Shown here: piece by piece, positions 6,021 to 15,603 of the stretch
Position numbering within the stretch: position 1 is the first letter of the stretch
Layout: the number at the start of each line of letters is the position of its first letter
Origin: Saccharospirillum sp.
Lineage (GTDB): Bacteria; Pseudomonadota; Gammaproteobacteria; Pseudomonadales; Natronospirillaceae
Assembly (NCBI GenBank): GCA_022565595.1
Contig: JAIUML010000019.1
Span: forward strand, 1 to 64,000
Reading direction: 5' to 3'
DNA length: 64,000 bases
Program-made: the position numbers and the translations under genes
Notes under the pieces: generated by a model
What the model saw: only the letters and a program-made list of their open reading frames with translations
What the model was told of the DNA's origin: nothing
Database searches by the model: none

Positions 6021-7397
6021 TTGACCGCCAACGACTTCACCCAACTGTCCCTCAAGCCCGAATTGCTGAAGAATCTCGACAGCCTGGGCTTCCATCAGAT
6101 GACGCCCATTCAGGCGCTCAGCTTGCCGGCTGTGCTGGCCGGAAAGGACGTGATTGGGCAGGGCAAAACCGGCTCTGGCAAAACAGCGGCCTTTGGACTG
6201 GGGGTGCTCAACCGGCTGGACGTAACCTTCTGGCGCGTGCAGTCGCTGGTGTTATGCCCCACGCGTGAACTGGCGGATCAGGTCACCAAAAGCCTGCGCA
6301 CCCTGGCACGTACTCAGCACAACGTGAAAATACTGACCCTCTGTGGCGGTATGCCATTTGGCCCTCAGGTGGGCTCACTGGAGCATGGGGCGCACATCAT
6401 TGTCGGCACTCCCGGGCGGGTTGAAGAGCATTTGCGCAAGGGCACGCTTGATCTTGGCCATCTGAGCTTGTTGGTGTTGGACGAAGCCGATCGCATGCTG
6501 GACATGGGCTTTCAGCCGTCGCTGGATGCCATTCTTGAGCAGGTGCCCGCCAAGCGGCAGACACTGCTGTTCAGCGCGACCTACCCGGATCACATCGAGA
6601 AACTGGCCAATCGCGTCCTGCGTCAGCCGGTCATGGCCAGAGTGGCTGAAACAGAAACGGCCCCGCGCATTGAGCAATCCTTTTATTGGGTGGCTGATTC
6701 CGACGATCGACTCCAGGCCTTGCTGACTCTGTTACACGCTCATCTGCCTGAGAGTGCCATTGTGTTTTGCCGTACCCGAGAGAACACCTTTGAAGTCGCC
6801 GAGGCATTATCCAAGGCCGGGTTCAGTGCTGTGGCATTGAATGGTGATCTTGAGCAAAGACAAAGGGACCAGGTGTTGGTCTGTTTTGCCAATCGCAGTA
6901 CTTCCATTCTGGTGGCAACCGATGTAGCGGCACGCGGTATTGATATCGAAGCACTGGATCTGGTCGTCAACTATCAAATGGCGCTGGATACTGAAGTTCA
7001 CCTGCATCGCGTTGGACGCACTGGCCGTGCCGATCAGCAAGGCAAGGCGTTCACCCTGTTCAGTGACGGCGAACGGCACCGCCTGGCGGATCTGGAAGCC
7101 TATCTGGATACCCATTTGGAAGCGCAACCCCTGCCGGAGGTGATACCCGGCCCTATTCCTGGCCCGGCCATGGTGACGTTGCAACTCGATGCTGGACGTA
7201 AACAGAAAATCCGCCCGGGTGATATTCTAGGGGCCTTGACGGGCGACGGCGGCATCGACGGCAAGGCCGTTGGCAAAATTGCCCTGTTCGATCAAACCGC
7301 TTTTGTCGCGGTGCAGCGCTCCAAGGCCAAGCTCGCCCTGGCAAAACTGGGTCAGGGCAAGATCAAGGGGCGGTCGGTGCGAGTACGTCGTCTCTAA
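6021..7397 (+). CDS. dbpA: ATP-dependent 23S rRNA helicase DbpA
   Basis: DEAD-box RNA helicase specific for hairpin 92 of 23S rRNA, acting in 50S subunit assembly. Motifs in order: Q motif (FHQMTPIQ), Walker A GKTGSGKT, PTRELA, DEAD ([10 protein letters not shown]), SAT, and HRVGRTGRA. The C-terminal 70 residues (RKQKIRPGDILGALTGDGGI...) are the DbpA-type RNA-binding domain, which separates it from RhlE and SrmB. I place the start at TTG 6021, not at in-frame ATGs upstream, because AGGAG sits 8 nt before it (6008-6012) and the product is then 458 residues, essentially the length of E. coli DbpA. Upstream in-frame codons show no similarity to the family. Confidence 0.92.
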   Translation: MTANDFTQLSLKPELLKNLDSLGFHQMTPIQALSLPAVLAGKDVIGQGKTGSGKTAAFGLGVLNRLDVTFWRVQSLVLCPTRELADQVTKSLRTLARTQHNVKILTLCGGMPFGPQVGSLEHGAHIIVGTPGRVEEHLRKGTLDLGHLSLLVLDEADRMLDMGFQPSLDAILEQVPAKRQTLLFSATYPDHIEKLANRVLRQPVMARVAETETAPRIEQSFYWVADSDDRLQALLTLLHAHLPESAIVFCRTRENTFEVAEALSKAGFSAVALNGDLEQRQRDQVLVCFANRSTSILVATDVAARGIDIEALDLVVNYQMALDTEVHLHRVGRTGRADQQGKAFTLFSDGERHRLADLEAYLDTHLEAQPLPEVIPGPIPGPAMVTLQLDAGRKQKIRPGDILGALTGDGGIDGKAVGKIALFDQTAFVAVQRSKAKLALAKLGQGKIKGRSVRVRRL

Positions 7398-7428
7398 GGC
7401 GGTTTACCTGTTCATTTATATTTGCTTA

Positions 7429-7440
7429 TACTAAATGGTA
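7429..7440. promoter_or_regulatory. Putative operator TACTAAATGGTA
   Basis: Palindrome-like TACTAAATGGTA followed by TAAAAGAG, 91 bp upstream of the first LuxR/hydrolase gene. Near-identical sites, TACCAAACGGTA, occur upstream of both DUF1566 operons (13440-13451, 15551-15562) at 100-102 bp from their start codons. Shared sequence and spacing suggest a common regulator; which protein binds is not known. Confidence 0.45.
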
Positions 7441-7530
7441 TAAAAGAGCCCAGTGAGCTTTAGCGCGCTGGGGGTCCCATTGCCATAGGTTTGCCGATTC
7501 TTCTCGGAGGCCTGCAGTTGAGCAAACGGA

Positions 7531-9267
7531 ATGAGCAGAGCAACAGAGGAAGGGCAGGCATCACAGTCCGATGCAACGGGGCAATTGCCGCAACGCTTAC
7601 GTGAACTGGTGACTCAGGTCGCTGAGCGCGAAGCGGATTTTCCCGATCTTATCGTGGCCCTGTCACCCCTGATCAATCAGGGCAGCATGTTGCCGACGGA
7701 AACCGCACTCGAACTCTCGGTCGCACTGCATGACCTTGAAGCCGAAGCCATTGAGGAAGATGCGCTTTATCGGCTCGTTAATCAGCAGGTTGCGCCCGCC
7801 ATTGCCGTCAGTAAGAGCGCCGCTGTATTGGCGCTGAACACCGGTGCCCGTCAGTTGTTCAGGCTTCACCCCGGCGATGGCCTCGATGAGTTGGGAGTGA
7901 CCGAAGCAGATTTTCTCGCCTTGCAACAGCGCCTTGCGGAAGTGGCCGGACCAACCATGCTTAAGGTGATGCGGCCAGGCGCCGATACCCTGCCGATGGT
8001 GATGATCGGGAGCTACAATCATCGCTATCGGGCCTTTGTGCTGACGGCGTTGCAGCATCATTGGCCTGCGTCCGTCGACAAAGCACTGGAATCCCTGTTT
8101 CACCTCACCCGTTCCGAGCGCGAAGTTTTATCTTTGCTGGCGCAAGGCCAGACGACAGAGCAGATTGCCCAGAATCGAGCCAGTGCCATCGGCACAGTCC
8201 GTCAGCAGATCAAGACCCTGTTGCAAAAGCTGGGCACTTCGACTCAGGTTCAGGCGGCCACTCTGGCCGCTGCTGCAGCCAATGCTCTGACCGAAGCCCC
8301 CGCCAGCAGCGATACCCTGATGTTGCGGCAGAGTCATCTTGAGATGGTCTATGGCGAATTTCTTCGCGACGGTCGGCGTGTTGGTTGGCGACGTTTTGGT
8401 CTGCCCGGAGGAAAGCCCGTTATTTTCTTGCATGGACCCTTTTTCGGAGCCGGTGAGTTTGAGGCCGACCGGGAGTGGGCACAGCGCCTCGGGTTGGATG
8501 TATTCGCCATTGAGCGCCCTGGCTACGGACGCACGGAACCACCACCACGCAAAGAGACGGTGGTTGACACCATGGTCGAAGACGCACGCTTGTTGATGGA
8601 TCTTCAGTCGATCCCCACTGCGCTTTTTCTGACCCATGAAATTGGTTTGATCCCGGCGCTGGCCTTGTCCGTAAAACACCCTGATCGGGTACAGCAGATT
8701 TTAGGTGTCTCAGCCGCACCGCCATTCAGTGAGCTTTCTCAGTTGAATGCCATGCCTTCACAACAACGCATTTTTATCTGGGCGGCACAAAATGCCCAGT
8801 GGCTGGTGCGTTTGTTGATTCGTCTGGGCATGGTGCGGTTGCGCAAGCTGGGGCCCAACCGATGGATGGAGGCGGTGTTCAGCGAAGTGCCCGAGGATAT
8901 GGTGGTACTGAATCGACCAGAAATGCAGCCAGGTATTATTGGCACTTACAGCTTGAACATTCAGCAGGTCGGGGCGGGATTCGAGGTCGACCTGCAATTG
9001 ACTTTCAGCGACTGGTCAGCCTTGGTGACTCAGACAGCCGCTCCGGTGACCTTGTTGCACGGAAGCCAGAACCAGACAACTCGATTGGAATTTGCACAAC
9101 TTTTTACCCGGATAAACCCGAACATTCAGTTAGCGACCGTTGAAGGCAGCGGTCAGTCTCTGGCCATAGAGCGTCCGGATTTGGTCTACCAGACGTTGCA
9201 TGATATGGCACGGGGGCTGGACATCAGGCCACCTGGGAAAAAAGCGGAAATTAACAAGACGCCATGA
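7531..9267 (+). CDS. LuxR-type HTH fused to a catalytically dead alpha/beta-hydrolase domain (paralogue 1)
   Basis: 578 residues in three parts. Residues about 1-185 are helical with a PAS-like segment; residues about 191-246 are a GerE/LuxR helix-turn-helix (LTRSEREVLSLLAQGQTTEQ onward); residues about 275-560 are an alpha/beta-hydrolase fold with the oxyanion-type FLHG at 299-302 and IERPGYGRT at 327-335. The nucleophile elbow reads THEIG (368-372), putting Glu where Ser/Cys/Asp is expected; the acid loop reads HGSQNQ and the final His position is Gln (GSGQS, 539-543). I infer a ligand-sensing pseudo-enzyme controlling transcription, not an esterase. Its stop overlaps the next gene's start by ATGA. 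The ATG at 7531 lacks a strong ribosome site; GGAGG at 7506-7510 instead fits an out-of-frame TTG at 7518. Confidence 0.8.
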   Translation: MSRATEEGQASQSDATGQLPQRLRELVTQVAEREADFPDLIVALSPLINQGSMLPTETALELSVALHDLEAEAIEEDALYRLVNQQVAPAIAVSKSAAVLALNTGARQLFRLHPGDGLDELGVTEADFLALQQRLAEVAGPTMLKVMRPGADTLPMVMIGSYNHRYRAFVLTALQHHWPASVDKALESLFHLTRSEREVLSLLAQGQTTEQIAQNRASAIGTVRQQIKTLLQKLGTSTQVQAATLAAAAANALTEAPASSDTLMLRQSHLEMVYGEFLRDGRRVGWRRFGLPGGKPVIFLHGPFFGAGEFEADREWAQRLGLDVFAIERPGYGRTEPPPRKETVVDTMVEDARLLMDLQSIPTALFLTHEIGLIPALALSVKHPDRVQQILGVSAAPPFSELSQLNAMPSQQRIFIWAAQNAQWLVRLLIRLGMVRLRKLGPNRWMEAVFSEVPEDMVVLNRPEMQPGIIGTYSLNIQQVGAGFEVDLQLTFSDWSALVTQTAAPVTLLHGSQNQTTRLEFAQLFTRINPNIQLATVEGSGQSLAIERPDLVYQTLHDMARGLDIRPPGKKAEINKTP

Positions 9268-10925
9268 AATCGGATTCAAAAAAAGTGACCGTCGCCGATC
9301 TGCCTCAGGGGGCGCTGCGGGCACTGGTGCAAGACATTGCCTCTCGCAAGGCCGAATTTGAGCAACTGGTTGCCTTGTTGCAGCCCATGCTGGTCAATGA
9401 TGAGGCTTTCGACAGCCACATCGCATTGGAACTCTCCAATGCATTGCATGAGCTGGAATTTCAGGCGGACAGCAGTGACGCCCTGAACAGCCTGGTCGAC
9501 CGCTACGCACCACCGGCACTGGTGCTGGATGACACCGGCCGGGTGATGGCCTCCAATAGAGCGCTGCGCGAGCTTAGGCCGATAGAAGTGGGGTCTCGTT
9601 GCGACGCTCTGGGGTTGAATGACAGTGCTTTTGTTGAATTCAAACAACGCCTGGCCTATCAAGCCGAAGCCACCTTGATTAATCTCCAGCGCAATCAGGA
9701 TGAGTCGGAATATCGTCCCATGTTAATGGTAGGGCATAGAGACCCAACACAGTCGGCCTATGTGCTGGTCGCCTTGCAGCAGCATTGGCCTGCTTCCATT
9801 GAACGTGCCGTTGCCGAGCTGTTTCGCCTGAGCCCAAAAGAGACGGAGGTTCTGGCAGGGCTGGCGTGCGGCCTGACCAGTGAACAGATTGCCGACCAAC
9901 ATCAGCGCAAAGTCACGACCGTTCGTCAGCAAACCAAAGCCCTGTTAAAGAAAATGGGCGCGGCCAACCAGACTCAGGCCGCTACCCTGGCCGCTGCCGC
10001 TTCCAATGCCGTCAACCGCGTCATGCCCGATGACGCCAGCTTGCAACTGCCCGACCAACGAGAACCCCTGCTGCAAGGCGAGAGCCACCGCGAAGAACGT
10101 CGCATCGGTTGGCGCCGCTTTGGTGACCCGAACGGGAAAAAGGTGCTCACCGTGCATGGACCCTCCTTTGGTGCAGGAGAATTCGAGCAGGATCGGTTGT
10201 GGGCCAAACGTTGTGGGCTGGATGTATATGCCATAGAGCGGCCTGGTTATGGCCGTACAGACCCGCCGCACCGCAAGGACGACCCGTTGCAATGCCAGGT
10301 GGACGATGCCTTGGCGGTATTGCGGCAGTTTAATGTCCAGCCCGAGTCGATACTGGCGCACGAAGTTGGGCTGGTACCGGCATTGGCCATCAGCCGCCAT
10401 TTGAAGGACAGTCTGAAGCACATCGTCGGCGTCTCTTGTGCGCCGCCCTTTAATGCCATGGAACAGCTCATCGATATGCCGGCCCAGCAAGGCATCTTTA
10501 TTCTCGCGGCGCGCAAAGCCCCCTGGCTGGCTCGCCTGCTGTTACGGCTGCTCGTTGTTCGGCTGCGTAAGCTCGGTTCGGAGCGCTGGTACCAGGCGGT
10601 GTTTGACGAAGTGCCGACCGATCTGGCCGTTACCCAAAGGCCGGAATTCAAGCAGGGCGTCATCGCTACCTACCCTTTTTACACCCGCCAGGCTGGCGCC
10701 GGTTTTGAAGTGGATTTGCAGGTGATGATTCAAGACTGGGGGCACTACGTCAGTGAATGCGATATACCTCTGACACTGCTGCATGGAAAAGACAATCCGA
10801 CCACGCCTTTTGAGTATCTCGATATCTTTACGGAGTTGAATCCAAAGGTTCAGATTCGAGGGTTCGAAAAAAATGGGCTCACCCTGGCGTTGAGTGAGCC
10901 CGAAGCACTGTATCGCATGCTTTGA
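9264..10925 (+). CDS. LuxR-type HTH fused to a catalytically dead alpha/beta-hydrolase domain (paralogue 2)
   Basis: 553 residues, collinear with the preceding gene over its whole length and translationally coupled to it (4-bp ATGA overlap), so a tandem duplication. A PAS-like stretch (PPALVLDDTGRVMASNRALR, about residues 83-102) precedes a LuxR helix-turn-helix (about 188-244, LSPKETEVLAGLACGLTSEQ onward) and an alpha/beta-hydrolase fold (about 280-553). The elbow is AHEVG (365-369) with Glu at the nucleophile position; the acid-loop region is HGKDNPTT and the segment that should carry the catalytic His is EKNGLTLA. Both copies therefore lost the same nucleophile in the same way, which argues for a shared non-catalytic role. 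The two may form a heterodimer. It is convergent with the DUF1566 operon that follows. Confidence 0.8.
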   Translation: MKSDSKKVTVADLPQGALRALVQDIASRKAEFEQLVALLQPMLVNDEAFDSHIALELSNALHELEFQADSSDALNSLVDRYAPPALVLDDTGRVMASNRALRELRPIEVGSRCDALGLNDSAFVEFKQRLAYQAEATLINLQRNQDESEYRPMLMVGHRDPTQSAYVLVALQQHWPASIERAVAELFRLSPKETEVLAGLACGLTSEQIADQHQRKVTTVRQQTKALLKKMGAANQTQAATLAAAASNAVNRVMPDDASLQLPDQREPLLQGESHREERRIGWRRFGDPNGKKVLTVHGPSFGAGEFEQDRLWAKRCGLDVYAIERPGYGRTDPPHRKDDPLQCQVDDALAVLRQFNVQPESILAHEVGLVPALAISRHLKDSLKHIVGVSCAPPFNAMEQLIDMPAQQGIFILAARKAPWLARLLLRLLVVRLRKLGSERWYQAVFDEVPTDLAVTQRPEFKQGVIATYPFYTRQAGAGFEVDLQVMIQDWGHYVSECDIPLTLLHGKDNPTTPFEYLDIFTELNPKVQIRGFEKNGLTLALSEPEALYRML

Positions 10926-10966
10926 AAAGCGGACAAATGATGACCTTCCCTGGCCTATAGGGTTGC

Positions 10967-12142
10967 TTAGTTGATCAACCCGCCGCGATTGTAATCGGCG
11001 GGTTGCGCGGTGCGCACCGGACGAAGGCGGAAACCTAAGATACCCGCATTTGATGAATGAAAATCCAATCCTGAGGCAGTAGGATTACCTCCATTACATT
11101 TACTAAAACGGTCGGTGTGGCTTAAGGATACTTCATTAGTTGTATTCTCAAAGAACGCTCTGCAAACCCGTTCCCGTAGCTCTAGCCGACCTGCATTGCT
11201 TTGTGGGGTTTTGATGTCATTCAGGTAAAGGCTTCCTTGGTAGTTAGCCTCAACACGGCTGACCTGGCCAAGCAGGTGTCTGGGGCGCCAATTACTTTGC
11301 ACGCCATTACTGCCATAATAGTGGCCATCGAATTGGATGGGGTGGAAGTGAGCCACATACATTTCGTAGAAGAAGCCGGGACTGTTGCGGTGCTCGGCAA
11401 CAGTTGAGGTCCAGAAAGTATTGAAGAAAAACCGTTTGGTCGTGTCGAAGTTGTAATGCTGCCCCGAGGTTCCTTCAACAAGATAATTAGCTCCCAATCG
11501 GGCTTCATTATGTCCAATGGTATAATAACCCTGTGAACCGGTAACACCAACCAGAGGTTGCGGCAATTGCAATCCATCGGGATCAATGAATTGATCGGGG
11601 AAGGCGGTGTCATTGACGTAGCTGCCCGACGTAGCGCAAGTCTCGAATATGGAGAGCATCTCCTTGGAGTTAGGGATGCGCCAGTCATTGTATCCACCGA
11701 ATTCGGCCTTCACTTCATTGGACAGCGTAAAAGTTTCGCCCGCCGTAACGGTCTGCCCTGTTGCCTGCAGAATCATAGCAATTTCGGCATTAACCGCGTC
11801 CTGTGCCTGTGCCTCAGTGGCACCTAGTGCCATATACTTTTCCACAGTAGACACGGTTTGTGCTATCTCTTCAGGAAACTCCAGATAAGTGATGGCGTCA
11901 TCAAAGCTGATACGGGTTTTAGTAATGTCCGCAGGGTTTTCACAACGCGGTGCGCCATTGTTGTAATCCCAGGTTTGTCCATGAGTACAAGCCTGCCACA
12001 TCAATCCGGTCGGTTTGTGAATCACCACACCATCCTGATAGCGCAGAAAATCTTCTGTGGGTGTACTTAAGTTGCAGCTTTGTGCAACAGCGTGAGTACT
12101 CATGAGCGAAATAAGGCCCAGTAGTGCAATTTTAGCTTTCAT
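10967..12142 (-). CDS. Secreted DUF1566 (Lcl C-terminal-like) protein
   Basis: 391 residues with a Sec signal peptide (residues 1-20, cleavage after AVA). The mature protein carries DUF1566-type signatures: TGLMWQAC, DDAITYLE, NDWRIPNSKEMLSIF, TFWTSTVAEH and, near the end, GFRLRPVR. The domain occurs in bacterial surface and extracellular proteins, for example the C-terminal region of the Legionella collagen-like adhesin Lcl. Ten bases separate it from the lipoprotein gene upstream, so the two form one operon. A perfect 9-bp inverted repeat (CAACCCGCC at 10976-10984, its complement at 10997-11005) sits in the last codons. Six to eight cysteines suggest disulfides. Ligand unknown. Confidence 0.72.
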   Translation of the reverse strand: MKAKIALLGLISLMSTHAVAQSCNLSTPTEDFLRYQDGVVIHKPTGLMWQACTHGQTWDYNNGAPRCENPADITKTRISFDDAITYLEFPEEIAQTVSTVEKYMALGATEAQAQDAVNAEIAMILQATGQTVTAGETFTLSNEVKAEFGGYNDWRIPNSKEMLSIFETCATSGSYVNDTAFPDQFIDPDGLQLPQPLVGVTGSQGYYTIGHNEARLGANYLVEGTSGQHYNFDTTKRFFFNTFWTSTVAEHRNSPGFFYEMYVAHFHPIQFDGHYYGSNGVQSNWRPRHLLGQVSRVEANYQGSLYLNDIKTPQSNAGRLELRERVCRAFFENTTNEVSLSHTDRFSKCNGGNPTASGLDFHSSNAGILGFRLRPVRTAQPADYNRGGLIN

Positions 12143-12153
12143 TGTGACGCTCC

Positions 12154-13338
12154 TTATTGGGCTGCTGAATCGTTAACAAACATGATGTAGGCCGTCGGGC
12201 AAGTGGTGCCACTGTTGTGACAACTGGCATCAAGGACGCTAAATTCACCGGTTCGATAATTGATGACCCAGGGGTAGAAAGTGCCAGCGTTTGGAGTTTG
12301 GCTGGGGTTGACGTAAATACCATCTCCTAACTGTTTGGGCGCGTTAGAACCCGTCCAATACCACTGGTTCGTTTCTGTTGCCGCAACCAGTGCTGTAAAG
12401 AAACCCTCATCAATTCGCTCGCCAGCCGCTGCGCTATCGTAATTCACTATTTCTCTGGCTTCAGCCTTGGTGGGCAGACGCCAGCCGGAGCTCAAGCCAC
12501 ACCGGCCAAAACTGTTGGCCTGTGACTCGAGCATGTCGTGATCTACCGGGAAGGTCGCATAGGCTATGTCGTTACTCCAAACCAGGCCCGTGACATTGTC
12601 ACGAACGCAGTCATGGCTTGTACTATTGCTGGCAACCGAGTTTCCACTGCTGTCTAGCTTGGTAAAATCAAAACCCGCCTCACCGCTGCCCAGCTTGATC
12701 AGGTCGCTCTGGCTGTCCCGCCCACGCAAGCCGTCATAACCAACCGTTTTACCGTCGGGTATGGTTATTGGTTCAGGCCCTACCGCAATCGAAAGCATGC
12801 GAGGATAGATTTCCGTAGTGGCTGGCAAATCGCCACAAACCGCGGCGCCATCGGGGAAACCCGTACCTCCTGAGTTTATGTAGATACAAGTCTGGTCGCC
12901 AGAATCATTGATAGCCCCAGCCACCACGGCCAGTTGTGAGCTGATTTCCACCTGGCTGGAACCAGAGGCCGCTTCCAGGCGCAAGTTCAGTAAGCGGCCA
13001 TTTTCAAGGCCTGAGACTAAGCACGGTGATGCTTGGCAGGTGAAAACGGCGCTACCGCCGGCTGACGGGCTAGCGCTGCTGATATCGGCGCTGTTGGTAT
13101 AAACCAGATAGGTATCGGCACCGCTGATTGTTTCAAAATCAACAACTACCCCGCCTCTCACGGGCTGAGTGCGTACCGCCAGGTTGGAGGTATCGACCGC
13201 AACGTCTGTACCAGTGTTGTTGCCACCTGTGTTGCCATTGTCACCCGTGGTGTTGGAGCCACTGCCTGAGCCACCGTCGCAGGCACCCAGCAACAGAGCC
13301 GTGCCACAAAGAGCCGTAGTGATGAGTATTTTGTTCAT
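12154..13338 (-). CDS. DUF1566 lipoprotein, first gene of operon 1
   Basis: 394 residues. The N-terminus (MNKILITTALCGTALLLGAC) is a lipoprotein signal with lipobox LLGAC, followed by a Gly/Ser/Asn/Thr-rich linker. Next is a region with fibronectin-like character (AVRTQPVRGGVVVDFETI...), then a DUF1566-type domain with FDFTKLDSSGN, HDCVRDNVTGLVWSND, CGLSSGWRLPTKAEAREIV and WYWTGS. It is probably anchored to the outer membrane and displays the domain outward. It is the first gene of a two-gene operon and is paralogous to the lipoprotein at 14160-15449; the two share the FDFTKLDSSG and CVRDN-TGL-W segments and also a nearly identical upstream block. Function is not known for this subfamily. Confidence 0.72.
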   Translation of the reverse strand: MNKILITTALCGTALLLGACDGGSGSGSNTTGDNGNTGGNNTGTDVAVDTSNLAVRTQPVRGGVVVDFETISGADTYLVYTNSADISSASPSAGGSAVFTCQASPCLVSGLENGRLLNLRLEAASGSSQVEISSQLAVVAGAINDSGDQTCIYINSGGTGFPDGAAVCGDLPATTEIYPRMLSIAVGPEPITIPDGKTVGYDGLRGRDSQSDLIKLGSGEAGFDFTKLDSSGNSVASNSTSHDCVRDNVTGLVWSNDIAYATFPVDHDMLESQANSFGRCGLSSGWRLPTKAEAREIVNYDSAAAGERIDEGFFTALVAATETNQWYWTGSNAPKQLGDGIYVNPSQTPNAGTFYPWVINYRTGEFSVLDASCHNSGTTCPTAYIMFVNDSAAQ

Positions 13339-13398
13339 TGGCCTTCCATAGATGCTATTGAGTTAAACGAGGAGCCGGCACAAAAGCCCTGGCTCCAG

Positions 13399-13451
13399 CC
13401 ATAGGGCCAAGGCTAAAGTGGAGGGCGCGGGCTGACATCTACCAAACGGTA
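13399..13451 (-). promoter_or_regulatory. Upstream control block of DUF1566 operon 1
   Basis: A 53-bp block that is identical at all but one position to 15510-15562, and in both cases begins exactly 61 bp upstream of the lipoprotein start codon. It ends in the palindrome TACCAAACGGTA (13440-13451). Conservation here exceeds that of the coding regions, as expected for a promoter/operator. I cannot assign clear -35/-10 hexamers. Confidence 0.6.
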
Positions 13452-13578
13452 TAAAAGAGGCATAAATTTGGGTGTGCATCCATGAGAAGGGGCTTTTGGG
13501 TTGAGTGGCGTTTACTGTGCAGGTATCAGGAATAGGGGCCAAAGTGGCCCCACAGGTTCGCTCGGTATGGGTGTATGA

Positions 13579-14163
13579 TTAAGGCGTTTGTAAGCTGAAT
13601 AAGTCTTCAGGCGTGGTATTGCGCACCAGGCGCAGATTCGTCGGCGTCGATGGATTCTGTGCATTGACGAAGTGCACATAAGAAAAAGTGTATCTAGGAG
13701 GCTGGTTCGGTTGCAGCGCATCGCTGTAAAAGCGCACCGTCATGGCTCCCATGCTGTTATCACCATTAGGAACTGGGGCGGCTGCAGTGCTCGACCAAAG
13801 CGTGCTGTCGCTTGGCTGGTCCGCAAAAGCGGCCTCGTTCACGCGAGTGTCGCAGCTAAATTCCAGCAAGCTCGCCAGCTCTTTTACATTGGGCAAGCGC
13901 CAATCCGCTGAGCCAAAGGCTGTATTGGTTTCTGCTGTCTCTAGTGCGTTCTGCCAGGGCAACTCACTCGCATCACCCGCACAGCTACCGTCGTCGTAGT
14001 CCATGCCATGCAAACAGGGTTGCCAGATCAAACCGGTGCTTTTTTGCAGCACCCAGCCTTGGCTCGACTTAACAAAGTCTGCATCGTTACTGTTACAGGC
14101 GGCCAGAGCTGTTTGGTGGGTAAACAATCCACCAAGTATTAGACTTAGAATGGCTTTGTTCAT
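13579..14163 (-). CDS. Secreted short DUF1566 protein
   Basis: 194 residues with a signal peptide (about residues 1-21, ending TALA). The mature protein is a compact DUF1566-type domain: STGLIWQPC, DWRLPNVKELASLLE, LWSSTAA and, at the end, NLRLVRN. It corresponds to the secreted protein of operon 1 (10967-12142) but is half its length, lacking the internal insertion. Its start overlaps the stop of the lipoprotein gene upstream (ATGA), so the two are translationally coupled. The pattern of signal peptide plus cysteines suggests a periplasmic or extracellular disulfide-bonded protein. Partner is probably the lipoprotein encoded with it; this is inferred from gene pairing only. Confidence 0.7.
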   Translation of the reverse strand: MNKAILSLILGGLFTHQTALAACNSNDADFVKSSQGWVLQKSTGLIWQPCLHGMDYDDGSCAGDASELPWQNALETAETNTAFGSADWRLPNVKELASLLEFSCDTRVNEAAFADQPSDSTLWSSTAAAPVPNGDNSMGAMTVRFYSDALQPNQPPRYTFSYVHFVNAQNPSTPTNLRLVRNTTPEDLFSLQTP

Positions 14164-15449
14164 GGCTGTACTCCATCTTGGCCGTTACTGACTAGGCGAG
14201 CAAAGGCACCGTCTTGAATGTCGGTAAAATTGTTGACGCTATAAACAAAATTGGCACGCTCAGAGTTGGTGTTCACCAATGAGCCGCGGAAGAAATCGAC
14301 CAGGGTACCGCCAAAATCTTGATACTGATTTAAGTAACTGTCACTGGTCCAATAATTGGCGTGTCTGACGCGCTCACTTGAGGTGGAATTTGGCGAATAA
14401 TTCACCAGCCTTGTATTAGGAAAGTAATCCACATCAATACTGAGGTATTGCTCTATAACGGAGTCAGCACTGGCGGCTACGGTCACGCCGTAAGGCTTAT
14501 CAAAATCAACCAAGCCGAATAGCTCAGTGGCAGTGGGCAAGCGCCAGTTGCTCAGGCCACAAAGACCAGCATTATTAGTGGTTGCAACATGGGCGTTAAC
14601 ACTCCCTAAAGCAGAGCCCGTATTAGTGCCCCACACATAGCGCTCATTGCGATTGCTGGTGGTTTTCACTTCCCAGATTAAACCTGTCAGATTATCGCGC
14701 ACACAGCTGTGCGCCGAGCCATCGGTGATGGGCTGACCACTGCTGTCGAGTTTGGTGAAGTCAAAGCCACCCGAGCCCGCTCCTAGCTTCGTTGGAGCAC
14801 TGGCATCGCGGCCGACCAGGCCGTCTTGCCCAGCTATTGCCGTCTGGGAGGAGCAGTCCGTAATATCAAGCGCGCTTACGGCGCCAGTTATAGGGTTAAC
14901 CCATGGAGCAAAGCAACGCAGCGCACCGCTATCGTTGATCTGCCCACTGGCGGCGAGAATTTGGCTAAAATCAACGGTGTCACCTGAAGCGTTTTCAGAA
15001 AGGAGTGCAATGAACGTCAGTTCTCCAGGAGGTGTTGCAATGATGCACGGGCTTTCTGAGCAGCTATTGACCGGTGGCATAGTGCCATTAGCTGCTGGGT
15101 TAGTCTCATCAATGACTTGGCTGGAATAGTAAAGCTGTGTTGATTCGGTACTGGCGAGGGTGTCCCATTCCAGCAGCAGTGACGAGGCCAGTGGTGTTGC
15201 ACGAAGATTTGCATTATTGCTAAAAGTCGGCGGGGTGGGGGTAATGCTGTCATTTCCGTTATCGCCAGAGCCCCCGGTATCACCAGAGCCTACACTATCT
15301 CCATTTCCATTCCCTCCAGAACCCCCGTTATCGGATTGGTTGGAGCCATTGTTGTCGGAATCTCCTTCGCCATTGCTGGAGGATGAATTACAAGCACTGA
15401 GCAGCAGAGCTGCGGTGCACAGTGTTGATGTGAGCAAGAGTTTGTTCAT
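14160..15449 (-). CDS. DUF1566 lipoprotein, first gene of operon 2
   Basis: 429 residues. Lipoprotein signal with lipobox LLSAC (cysteine 20), then about 50 residues made almost only of Gly, Ser, Asn and Asp: a long flexible acidic tether. After a fibronectin-like stretch (NANLRATPLASSLLLEWDTL) comes a DUF1566-type domain with FDFTKLDSSGQ, HSCVRDNLTGLIWEV, CGLSNWRLPTATELFGLVDF and NYWTSDSYL. It pairs with the downstream secreted protein exactly as in the neighbouring operon, so the pair was duplicated as a unit. Base composition is visibly more AT-rich than the flanking housekeeping genes, which fits accessory DNA. A surface or outer-membrane display role is inferred. Confidence 0.72.
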   Translation of the reverse strand: MNKLLLTSTLCTAALLLSACNSSSSNGEGDSDNNGSNQSDNGGSGGNGNGDSVGSGDTGGSGDNGNDSITPTPPTFSNNANLRATPLASSLLLEWDTLASTESTQLYYSSQVIDETNPAANGTMPPVNSCSESPCIIATPPGELTFIALLSENASGDTVDFSQILAASGQINDSGALRCFAPWVNPITGAVSALDITDCSSQTAIAGQDGLVGRDASAPTKLGAGSGGFDFTKLDSSGQPITDGSAHSCVRDNLTGLIWEVKTTSNRNERYVWGTNTGSALGSVNAHVATTNNAGLCGLSNWRLPTATELFGLVDFDKPYGVTVAASADSVIEQYLSIDVDYFPNTRLVNYSPNSTSSERVRHANYWTSDSYLNQYQDFGGTLVDFFRGSLVNTNSERANFVYSVNNFTDIQDGAFARLVSNGQDGVQP

Positions 15450-15509
15450 TGGTCTTCCACTGATGCAATTGAATCAAACGCGGAGCAGGCACATAAGCAC
15501 TGGCTCCAA

Positions 15510-15562
15510 CCATAGGGCCAAGGCTAAAGTGGAGTGCGCGGGCTGACATCTACCAAACGGTA
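15510..15562 (-). promoter_or_regulatory. Upstream control block of DUF1566 operon 2
   Basis: Duplicate of 13399-13451 with one mismatch over 53 bp and the same 61-bp distance to the start codon. Its distal end is the palindrome TACCAAACGGTA at 15551-15562. Sequence outside the block, toward the gene, is recognisably related but more diverged. Confidence 0.6.
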
Positions 15563-15581: not shown

Positions 15582-15603
15582 GGCTCCTGATCAAACAGGA
15601 GCC
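15582..15603 (-). terminator. Hairpin downstream of the MscS-family gene
   Basis: Perfect 8-bp stem (GGCTCCTG at 15582-15589, CAGGAGCC at 15596-15603) with a 6-nt loop. Reading on the minus strand, it comes 29 nt after the channel gene and is followed by CGTTTTCC, a short U-run. It also separates that gene from the promoter of DUF1566 operon 2. Confidence 0.55.

Follow-up and report, generated by a model that had tools for sequence, protein, structure and literature searches.

Regulators that join a PAS or LOV domain to a LuxR-type helix-turn-helix (HTH), such as VqmA and EL222, and the sensing module formed by the α/β-hydrolase RsbQ together with a PAS domain are the nearest known relatives of a regulatory locus which we describe here from Saccharospirillum sp. 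(assembly GCA_022565595.1). The locus occupies positions 7,429 to 15,562 of a 64,000-nucleotide stretch of contig JAIUML010000019.1 (the whole of which is referred to as ‘the window’), and comprises two tandem genes for LuxR-type regulators fused to a pseudo-α/β-hydrolase, here called luxA and luxB, and two DUF1566/Lcl_C gene pairs that are convergent to them, each with its lipoprotein gene first. We consider it probable, at roughly 85%, that these genes belong to a small, self-contained regulon, in which a one-component activator of surface genes probably also represses its own operon. A first-pass annotation had proposed that the LuxR-fused sensors control themselves and a set of surface lipoproteins, and at the level of sequence this reading is supported by the operator sites, their rarity, their conservation and their polarity.

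VqmA and EL222 provide the best structural matches to a model of the N-terminal 256 residues of LuxA, although the low global TM-scores (~0.3) imply that only the domain types agree. To our knowledge, neither protein carries a C-terminal α/β-hydrolase domain, and their operators and targets presumably differ from those found here. The GerE-type HTH is common to LuxA and LuxR, and the lux box is, as we take it, likewise a dyad operator that lies upstream of the gene it activates with its centre near −42.5, presumably with a half-site other than the one described below. In contrast to LuxR, however, no autoinducer-binding family is among the eight families listed for LuxA at E ≤ 5 (the listing for the other members covers 25 of 43 families), which, along with the PAS-like fold predicted for its N-terminus, would set it apart from the LuxR regulators of N-acyl homoserine lactone quorum sensing. 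The pairing of RsbQ with the PAS domain of RsbP is presented as a sensor module with diverse outputs, in which RsbQ is a separate protein requiring an intact catalytic triad and the outputs are a phosphatase, a histidine kinase and a diguanylate cyclase (PMC3183031); its main text mentions neither LuxR nor helix-turn-helix nor DNA-binding, and the outputs that it names are not DNA-binding domains. In LuxA, by comparison, the hydrolase and the PAS-like domain are fused within one polypeptide, which also includes a GerE HTH and whose triad is degenerate. For the presumed targets, the likeness is to Legionella Lcl, which has a C-terminal DUF1566/PF07603 domain and a collagen-like region (PMC11162425): PF07603 scores above its cut-off (34.9 bits) in all four target proteins of the window (49.0, 39.8, 68.7 and 57.7 bits), while Pfam lists no collagen-like region for them. 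The system had initially been called undescribed, and among the matches listed from the open-access literature we found neither such a fusion nor such an operator system; the operator 12-mers were likewise not found among the matches listed for the short and unspecific term ATCTACCA.

Three related sites precede the regulator operon and the two DUF1566 operons. Upstream of luxA, TACTAAATGGTA is located at 7429–7440 (+ strand; flanks CTTA and TAAAAG), while TACCAAACGGTA is present at 13440–13451 and at 15551–15562, where it reads TACCGTTTGGTA followed by GATG on the gene (−) strand of DUF1566 operons A and B, respectively. Gaps of 90, 101 and 101 bp separate the sites from the respective start codons (7531, 13338 and 15449), and the flank TAYAAWAGAG accompanies all three sites. 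The designation as a palindrome holds for the arms TACC/GGTA, the fuller site being asymmetric. The first-pass annotation had further argued that a motif so specific is not expected three times by chance in 8 kb, for which the count by itself provides a weak argument: when up to two mismatches are allowed, the window contains 9 matches against 5.8 expected, and TACYAAAYGGTA has three exact matches in the 4.77-Mb assembly (66 contigs) against four for its backward control. The number of matches is thus unremarkable, whereas their placement and their conservation do exceed chance: all three fall within these 8 kb, and each precedes one of the genes concerned. A spread of the motif to other parts of the genome, which the first-pass annotation had named as an objection to its reading, is hence not seen. 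A 24-bp matrix trained on 15 distinct sites, all of them from other genera, ranks the three window sites first in the 64 kb (27.7, 18.1 and 16.3 bits; next independent match 6.4), and the best score in 30 Markov sequences of 64 kb is 16.2 bits, with the others at or below 10.6. The sites at 13440 and 15551 are not independent of each other, since both lie within duplicated leaders. Chance coincidence as an explanation for the three sites was rejected on account of their conservation. Seven further DUF1566 domain matches of this genome (G000), on contigs C44, C16, C1 and C6, were considered as additional regulon members and rejected, since the stretches read there contain no match above 16.3 bits (best scores 8.1, 13.6, 10.6 and 2.6 bits, respectively); the 13.6-bit match (L034, 10248) falls outside the DUF1566 genes of that stretch (6894–8668).

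When sites from related loci are included, the operator acquires a direction. The first-pass annotation had considered the opposite placement of the flank in the two gene classes a weakness, which it turns out not to be: the flank is a conserved polarity, with the GATG-type side facing the exported gene at 22 of 22 targets (GATG at 18; TATG, GATT, CATG and CATG at the other four) and 11 of the 12 sites at regulators having their TAAA/TATA/TATG side towards the regulator gene. The 22 non-regulator targets all look exported, comprising 16 lipoproteins, 4 outer-membrane barrels and 2 other secreted proteins, as judged from their N-termini, which all show either a lipobox pattern or a hydrophobic, signal-like segment, and from Pfam (three of the four barrels were called by Pfam, and the fourth by the likeness of its N-terminus); the same lipobox pattern is found in 25 of 352 open reading frames (ORFs) taken as a baseline. 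Excluded from the targets were L067, on account of the low score of its site (5.5 bits at 11620), and the sites of M. zhejiangensis, Hellea and a Sphingomonadaceae metagenome-assembled genome (MAG), which were assigned to the regulator only.

The distance from operator to promoter is likewise recurrent. After four near-copies (the window site at 15551, L050, L052 and L059) had been dropped for this count, a −10-like TAnnnT begins 24 nt past the operator core at 10 of 18 target sites, with no more than one such hexamer at any other offset, and none of 5000 shuffles attained the mean −10 score found at this offset (1.23 over 16 sites). With the −10 hexamer placed at −12 to −7, an offset of 24 positions the centre of the operator dyad at −42.5, which we take to be the class II activator position known from LuxR at the lux box. 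In the window, the predicted −10 elements (TAGCCT) of operons A and B are located at 13410–13415 and 15521–15526 (both − strand), and no sigma70-like promoter was called at either of the two DUF1566 operators. It would be conceivable that the regulator represses the surface genes, given that the operator overlaps their −35 region and could block RNA polymerase there. We regard this as improbable, since weak, TAGCCT-like −10 elements at operators where no sigma70 promoter is called, together with the presumed class II spacing, argue for activation. The situation is reversed at luxA, where the operator overlaps a predicted sigma70-like promoter, TTTACC-18-TATACT (7403–7432, + strand; a consensus match only), including its −10 element, and this arrangement suggests autorepression.

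The preferred reading, that of activation of surface genes combined with autorepression, then suggests the following course of events. LuxA and LuxB would bind CATCTACCAnnTGGTATAAA as dimers, with a LuxA/LuxB heterodimer being possible, and would respond to a signal read by the pseudo-hydrolase and/or the PAS-like domain, the hydrolase domain being the most likely ligand sensor. At the surface-protein operons, where the operator takes the place of a −35 element, the bound regulator would recruit RNA polymerase to the weak −10 (TAnnnT), much as LuxR does at the lux box, while at its own operon it would probably act as a repressor, given that the operator there faces the other way and shares positions with the −10.

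Within the family, occurrence of the operator follows that of the regulator. Among 96 genomes, our own included, a protein search with a cut-off of E ≤ 1e-10 revealed regulator matches in eight, of which four are strong (best E 9e-104 or lower; G000, G009, G010 and G016) and four exhibit only 21–28% identity; in none of the five other genomes of the same genus was a homologue found at this cut-off. The extended operator pattern is present in 4 of 22 family genomes, and these are the four with strong regulator homologues (Fisher p = 1.4e-4); since three of the four had supplied the pattern, G009 is the one fully independent case. G018, with a weak regulator match of 21% identity, has no site. 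In G010 the whole locus is encountered again, with luxA, luxB and convergent DUF1566 genes, and with two sites, the distance from site to gene being 48 bp for luxA and 94 bp for the DUF1566 lipoprotein gene; the tandem order of luxA and luxB is kept in both G010 and G016. In the latter (Natronospirillum), the DUF1566 pair with its site and the regulators are on different contigs, the former near a contig end and the latter at one, while in G009 the regulator is split between two contigs, the site lies ahead of a lipoprotein start that is truncated by a contig end, and a DUF1566 pair is on a further contig. The co-occurrence of the two gene families, which had been proposed as a check, is hence found together with the site in G010 and G016, with the corresponding pieces of G009 on separate contigs. 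Large lipoproteins were also observed after the DUF1566 pair in G010 (L030, 11911–14751; FG-GAP in Pfam) and in G009 (L167, 1–2283; by eye), and these may be part of the same surface operon.

Beyond the family, an earlier scan with a single protein had yielded no confirmed relative, whereas a scan with an alignment profile yielded 27 named regulator loci. Marinobacter, Marinospirillum, Alcanivorax, Solimonas, Bacterioplanes, Devosia, Hellea and the Sphingomonadaceae MAG all have CATCTACCAnnTGGTATAAA in the vicinity of the regulator, as does Thalassolituus in a variant form. In a leave-one-genus-out matrix scan, 16 of the 27 loci, from both Gamma- and Alphaproteobacteria, contain a match above 16.3 bits, compared with 0 of 9 control stretches (top score 13.6); the 11 missed loci comprise four short contigs (L054, L062, L063 and L069), two with the site on another contig (L047 and L057) and five alphaproteobacterial loci. 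Among 390 genomes of the order, TCTACCANNTGGTATA is present in 4 of the 6 with a regulator (E ≤ 1e-90) and in 8 of the 384 others (Fisher p = 7.6e-6), the two regulator-bearing genomes without it being G000 and G010, whose sites are variants. Five of the other genomes with TCTACCANNTGGTATA but no strong regulator (G380, G198, G174, G209 and G191) have sites of 7.5 to 23 bits, which lie inside an ORF of more than 400 bp in four cases and about 60 bp from one in G380; we take these five as chance matches, while the sites of G068, G248 and G323 look real. In G209, a genome without a strong regulator match, a lipoprotein-like ORF nevertheless begins 43 bp after the 7.5-bit site (L108, 1501). As a partner of the regulator, DUF1566 represents one target class but is not obligatory, given that it is found in only 10 of 26 homologue-bearing genomes and is replaced elsewhere by another exported protein. 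A candidate case comes from the spirochaete Alkalispirochaeta alkalica, where a lipoprotein gene, in whose product a Pfam scan did not detect Lcl_C, is preceded by a 36-bit site at the end of a contig; the regulator, which starts at the end of a different contig, may be a neighbour of this site.

Several observations weigh against the reading as a regulon. The best of the 30 null sequences comes close in score to the weakest site of the window (16.3 bits); there is no clear site near luxA in G016 or G009; and the five alphaproteobacterial loci named as missed (L066, L067, L068, L071 and L073) contain no match in about 20 kb. The polarity is reversed in Hellea, and the count of 22 includes Solimonas and Devosia Root635, which were added after the polarity had been seen (20 of 20 before that). 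Targets and several start codons were assigned by hand from the neighbourhood, with the lipoprotein start in G009 being read separately. At eight of the 18 non-redundant targets, no TAnnnT is present at offset 24, and this offset was itself found by scanning, although each shuffle was scored at its own best offset. Moreover, the sites share ancestry, so that the counts overstate their independence. Finally, 40 matches of CTACCANNYGGTAT were counted across 30 genomes (four of them apparently duplicates, with G258 = G102, G202 = G107, G009 = G111 and G016 = G096) against 16 for the backward control, which implies that some of these matches are chance, and the genomes G248 and G323 (two species of one genus) contain a 28.6-bit site before a TonB-receptor-like exported protein, as judged by eye (L172, 6796, and L173, 6639), without any TVRQQ regulator within the 14 kb read. 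The last observation could be explained if the site belonged to another, global regulator, with the LuxR-hydrolase genes as mere members of its regulon. Such a regulator should leave many sites, however, and CTACCANNYGGTAT is present only one to four times in each of the 21 of 30 genomes that have any, partly by chance; a phylum sample of 398 genomes, which includes G000, contains no instance of a stringent pattern, a result which speaks to rarity only. In addition, site and regulator occur together in distant genera. In G068 (L174), moreover, a site at 6386 lies between an 840-aa lipoprotein-like ORF and a divergent 374-aa protein (6436–7560), which shares the recognition helix (GTVRQQIK) and exhibits a weak PAS match, with neither GerE nor a hydrolase matched in Pfam; the operator family may therefore be wider than the hydrolase fusion. 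Control by a global regulator thus appears very unlikely to us, and we retain the self-contained regulon as the preferred reading.

In LuxA (7531–9267, + strand; 578 aa), a helical N-terminus is followed by a PAS-like segment (90–173), the GerE HTH (~192–251) and the pseudo-α/β-hydrolase (272–560), and LuxB (9264–10925, + strand; 553 aa), whose gene overlaps luxA by 4 bp, has the same Pfam architecture, with the HTH central and the hydrolase domain C-terminal in both. GerE (PF00196) scores 35.9 and 37.7 bits in the two proteins against a cut-off of 23.5, and is matched at E ≤ 5 in all 26 aligned homologues; the recognition helix T[VI]RQQ[IVT]K is likewise present in 26 of 26, in line with the preferred reading. 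In Neoroseomonas terrae (L068, 11170), a palindrome TATCCCATATGGGATA was observed about 20 bp 3′ of the regulator gene, which perhaps reflects a shifted operator specificity of a subfamily. The AlphaFold model of LuxA (mean predicted local distance difference test score 83; predicted template modelling score, pTM, 0.78) places helical insertions in the hydrolase domain, and all 50 matches listed in a Foldseek search with the whole protein are α/β-hydrolase-fold proteins. For the N-terminal 256 residues (pTM of the model 0.52), the top matches are VqmA and EL222 (7dwm, 8a5r, 6ide, 3p7n and 6ugl; E 2e-7 to 8e-5), while the Pfam PAS match is weak, being found in 9 of 26 members (best E 0.0023), with LuxA not among them.

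The designation of the fused domain as a pseudo-hydrolase is borne out by the alignment, in which the triad positions are degenerate. None of the 26 homologues has Ser at the nucleophile position, which is occupied by Glu in 14 proteins, by Asp in 11 and by Ile in that of Hellea. All 26 carry Asn or Ser at the aligned acid position, with an Asp one residue earlier in LuxB and both G010 proteins, and the His is kept only in the seven alphaproteobacterial members; LuxA has Glu at the nucleophile and Gln at the His position. The domain is thus apparently catalytically degenerate, while the Asp-His members may differ. D14 and KAI2 are hormone receptors derived from hydrolases. It is tempting, albeit speculative and in our view somewhat doubtful, to consider the degenerate hydrolase a bacterial counterpart of these, a true small-molecule receptor devoid of catalysis, representing an undescribed receptor class that is carried together with its operator between distant bacteria and through which a diffusible compound would switch adhesin-like or other surface proteins.

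The duplicated DUF1566 pairs bear on a last alternative, namely that the shared sequence is a functionless relic of a duplication of the upstream region. Operon A encodes lipoprotein A1 (12154–13338; 394 aa; lipobox LGAC) and protein A2 (10967–12142; 391 aa), and operon B lipoprotein B1 (14160–15449; 429 aa; lipobox LSAC) and protein B2 (13579–14163; 194 aa), all on the − strand and with N-termini of A2 and B2 that by eye are signal-peptide-like; a terminator-like hairpin (15582–15603, − strand) 3′ of an mscK-like gene sets that gene apart from operon B. The sites at 13440 and 15551 indeed lie in leaders (13339–13451 and 15450–15562) that are 89% identical from operator to start codon (101 of 113 bp). 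Protein identity, however, amounts to just 29% between A1 and B1 and 27% between A2 and B2, the pairs being old paralogues, so that the leader has been kept while the proteins diverged, which suggests gene conversion or a strong constraint on the leader; moreover, other genera have this site ahead of exported genes that are unrelated to these. A relic can therefore be practically dismissed. A diversity-generating retroelement was also considered for the DUF1566 duplication; of the four reverse transcriptase matches in the genome, none is on contig C19.

If the regulon exists as read here, a little-studied regulator family would gain a predicted operator, a promoter geometry and a target class together. 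The locus points to a means of controlling surface lipoproteins, among them the DUF1566 proteins, for which no clear general role has emerged, and to a sensor derived from an apparently dead enzyme, for which a ligand may be sought. The recurrence of the arrangement of regulator, site and surface gene in other bacteria would then point to a little-studied form of signal-driven surface change.

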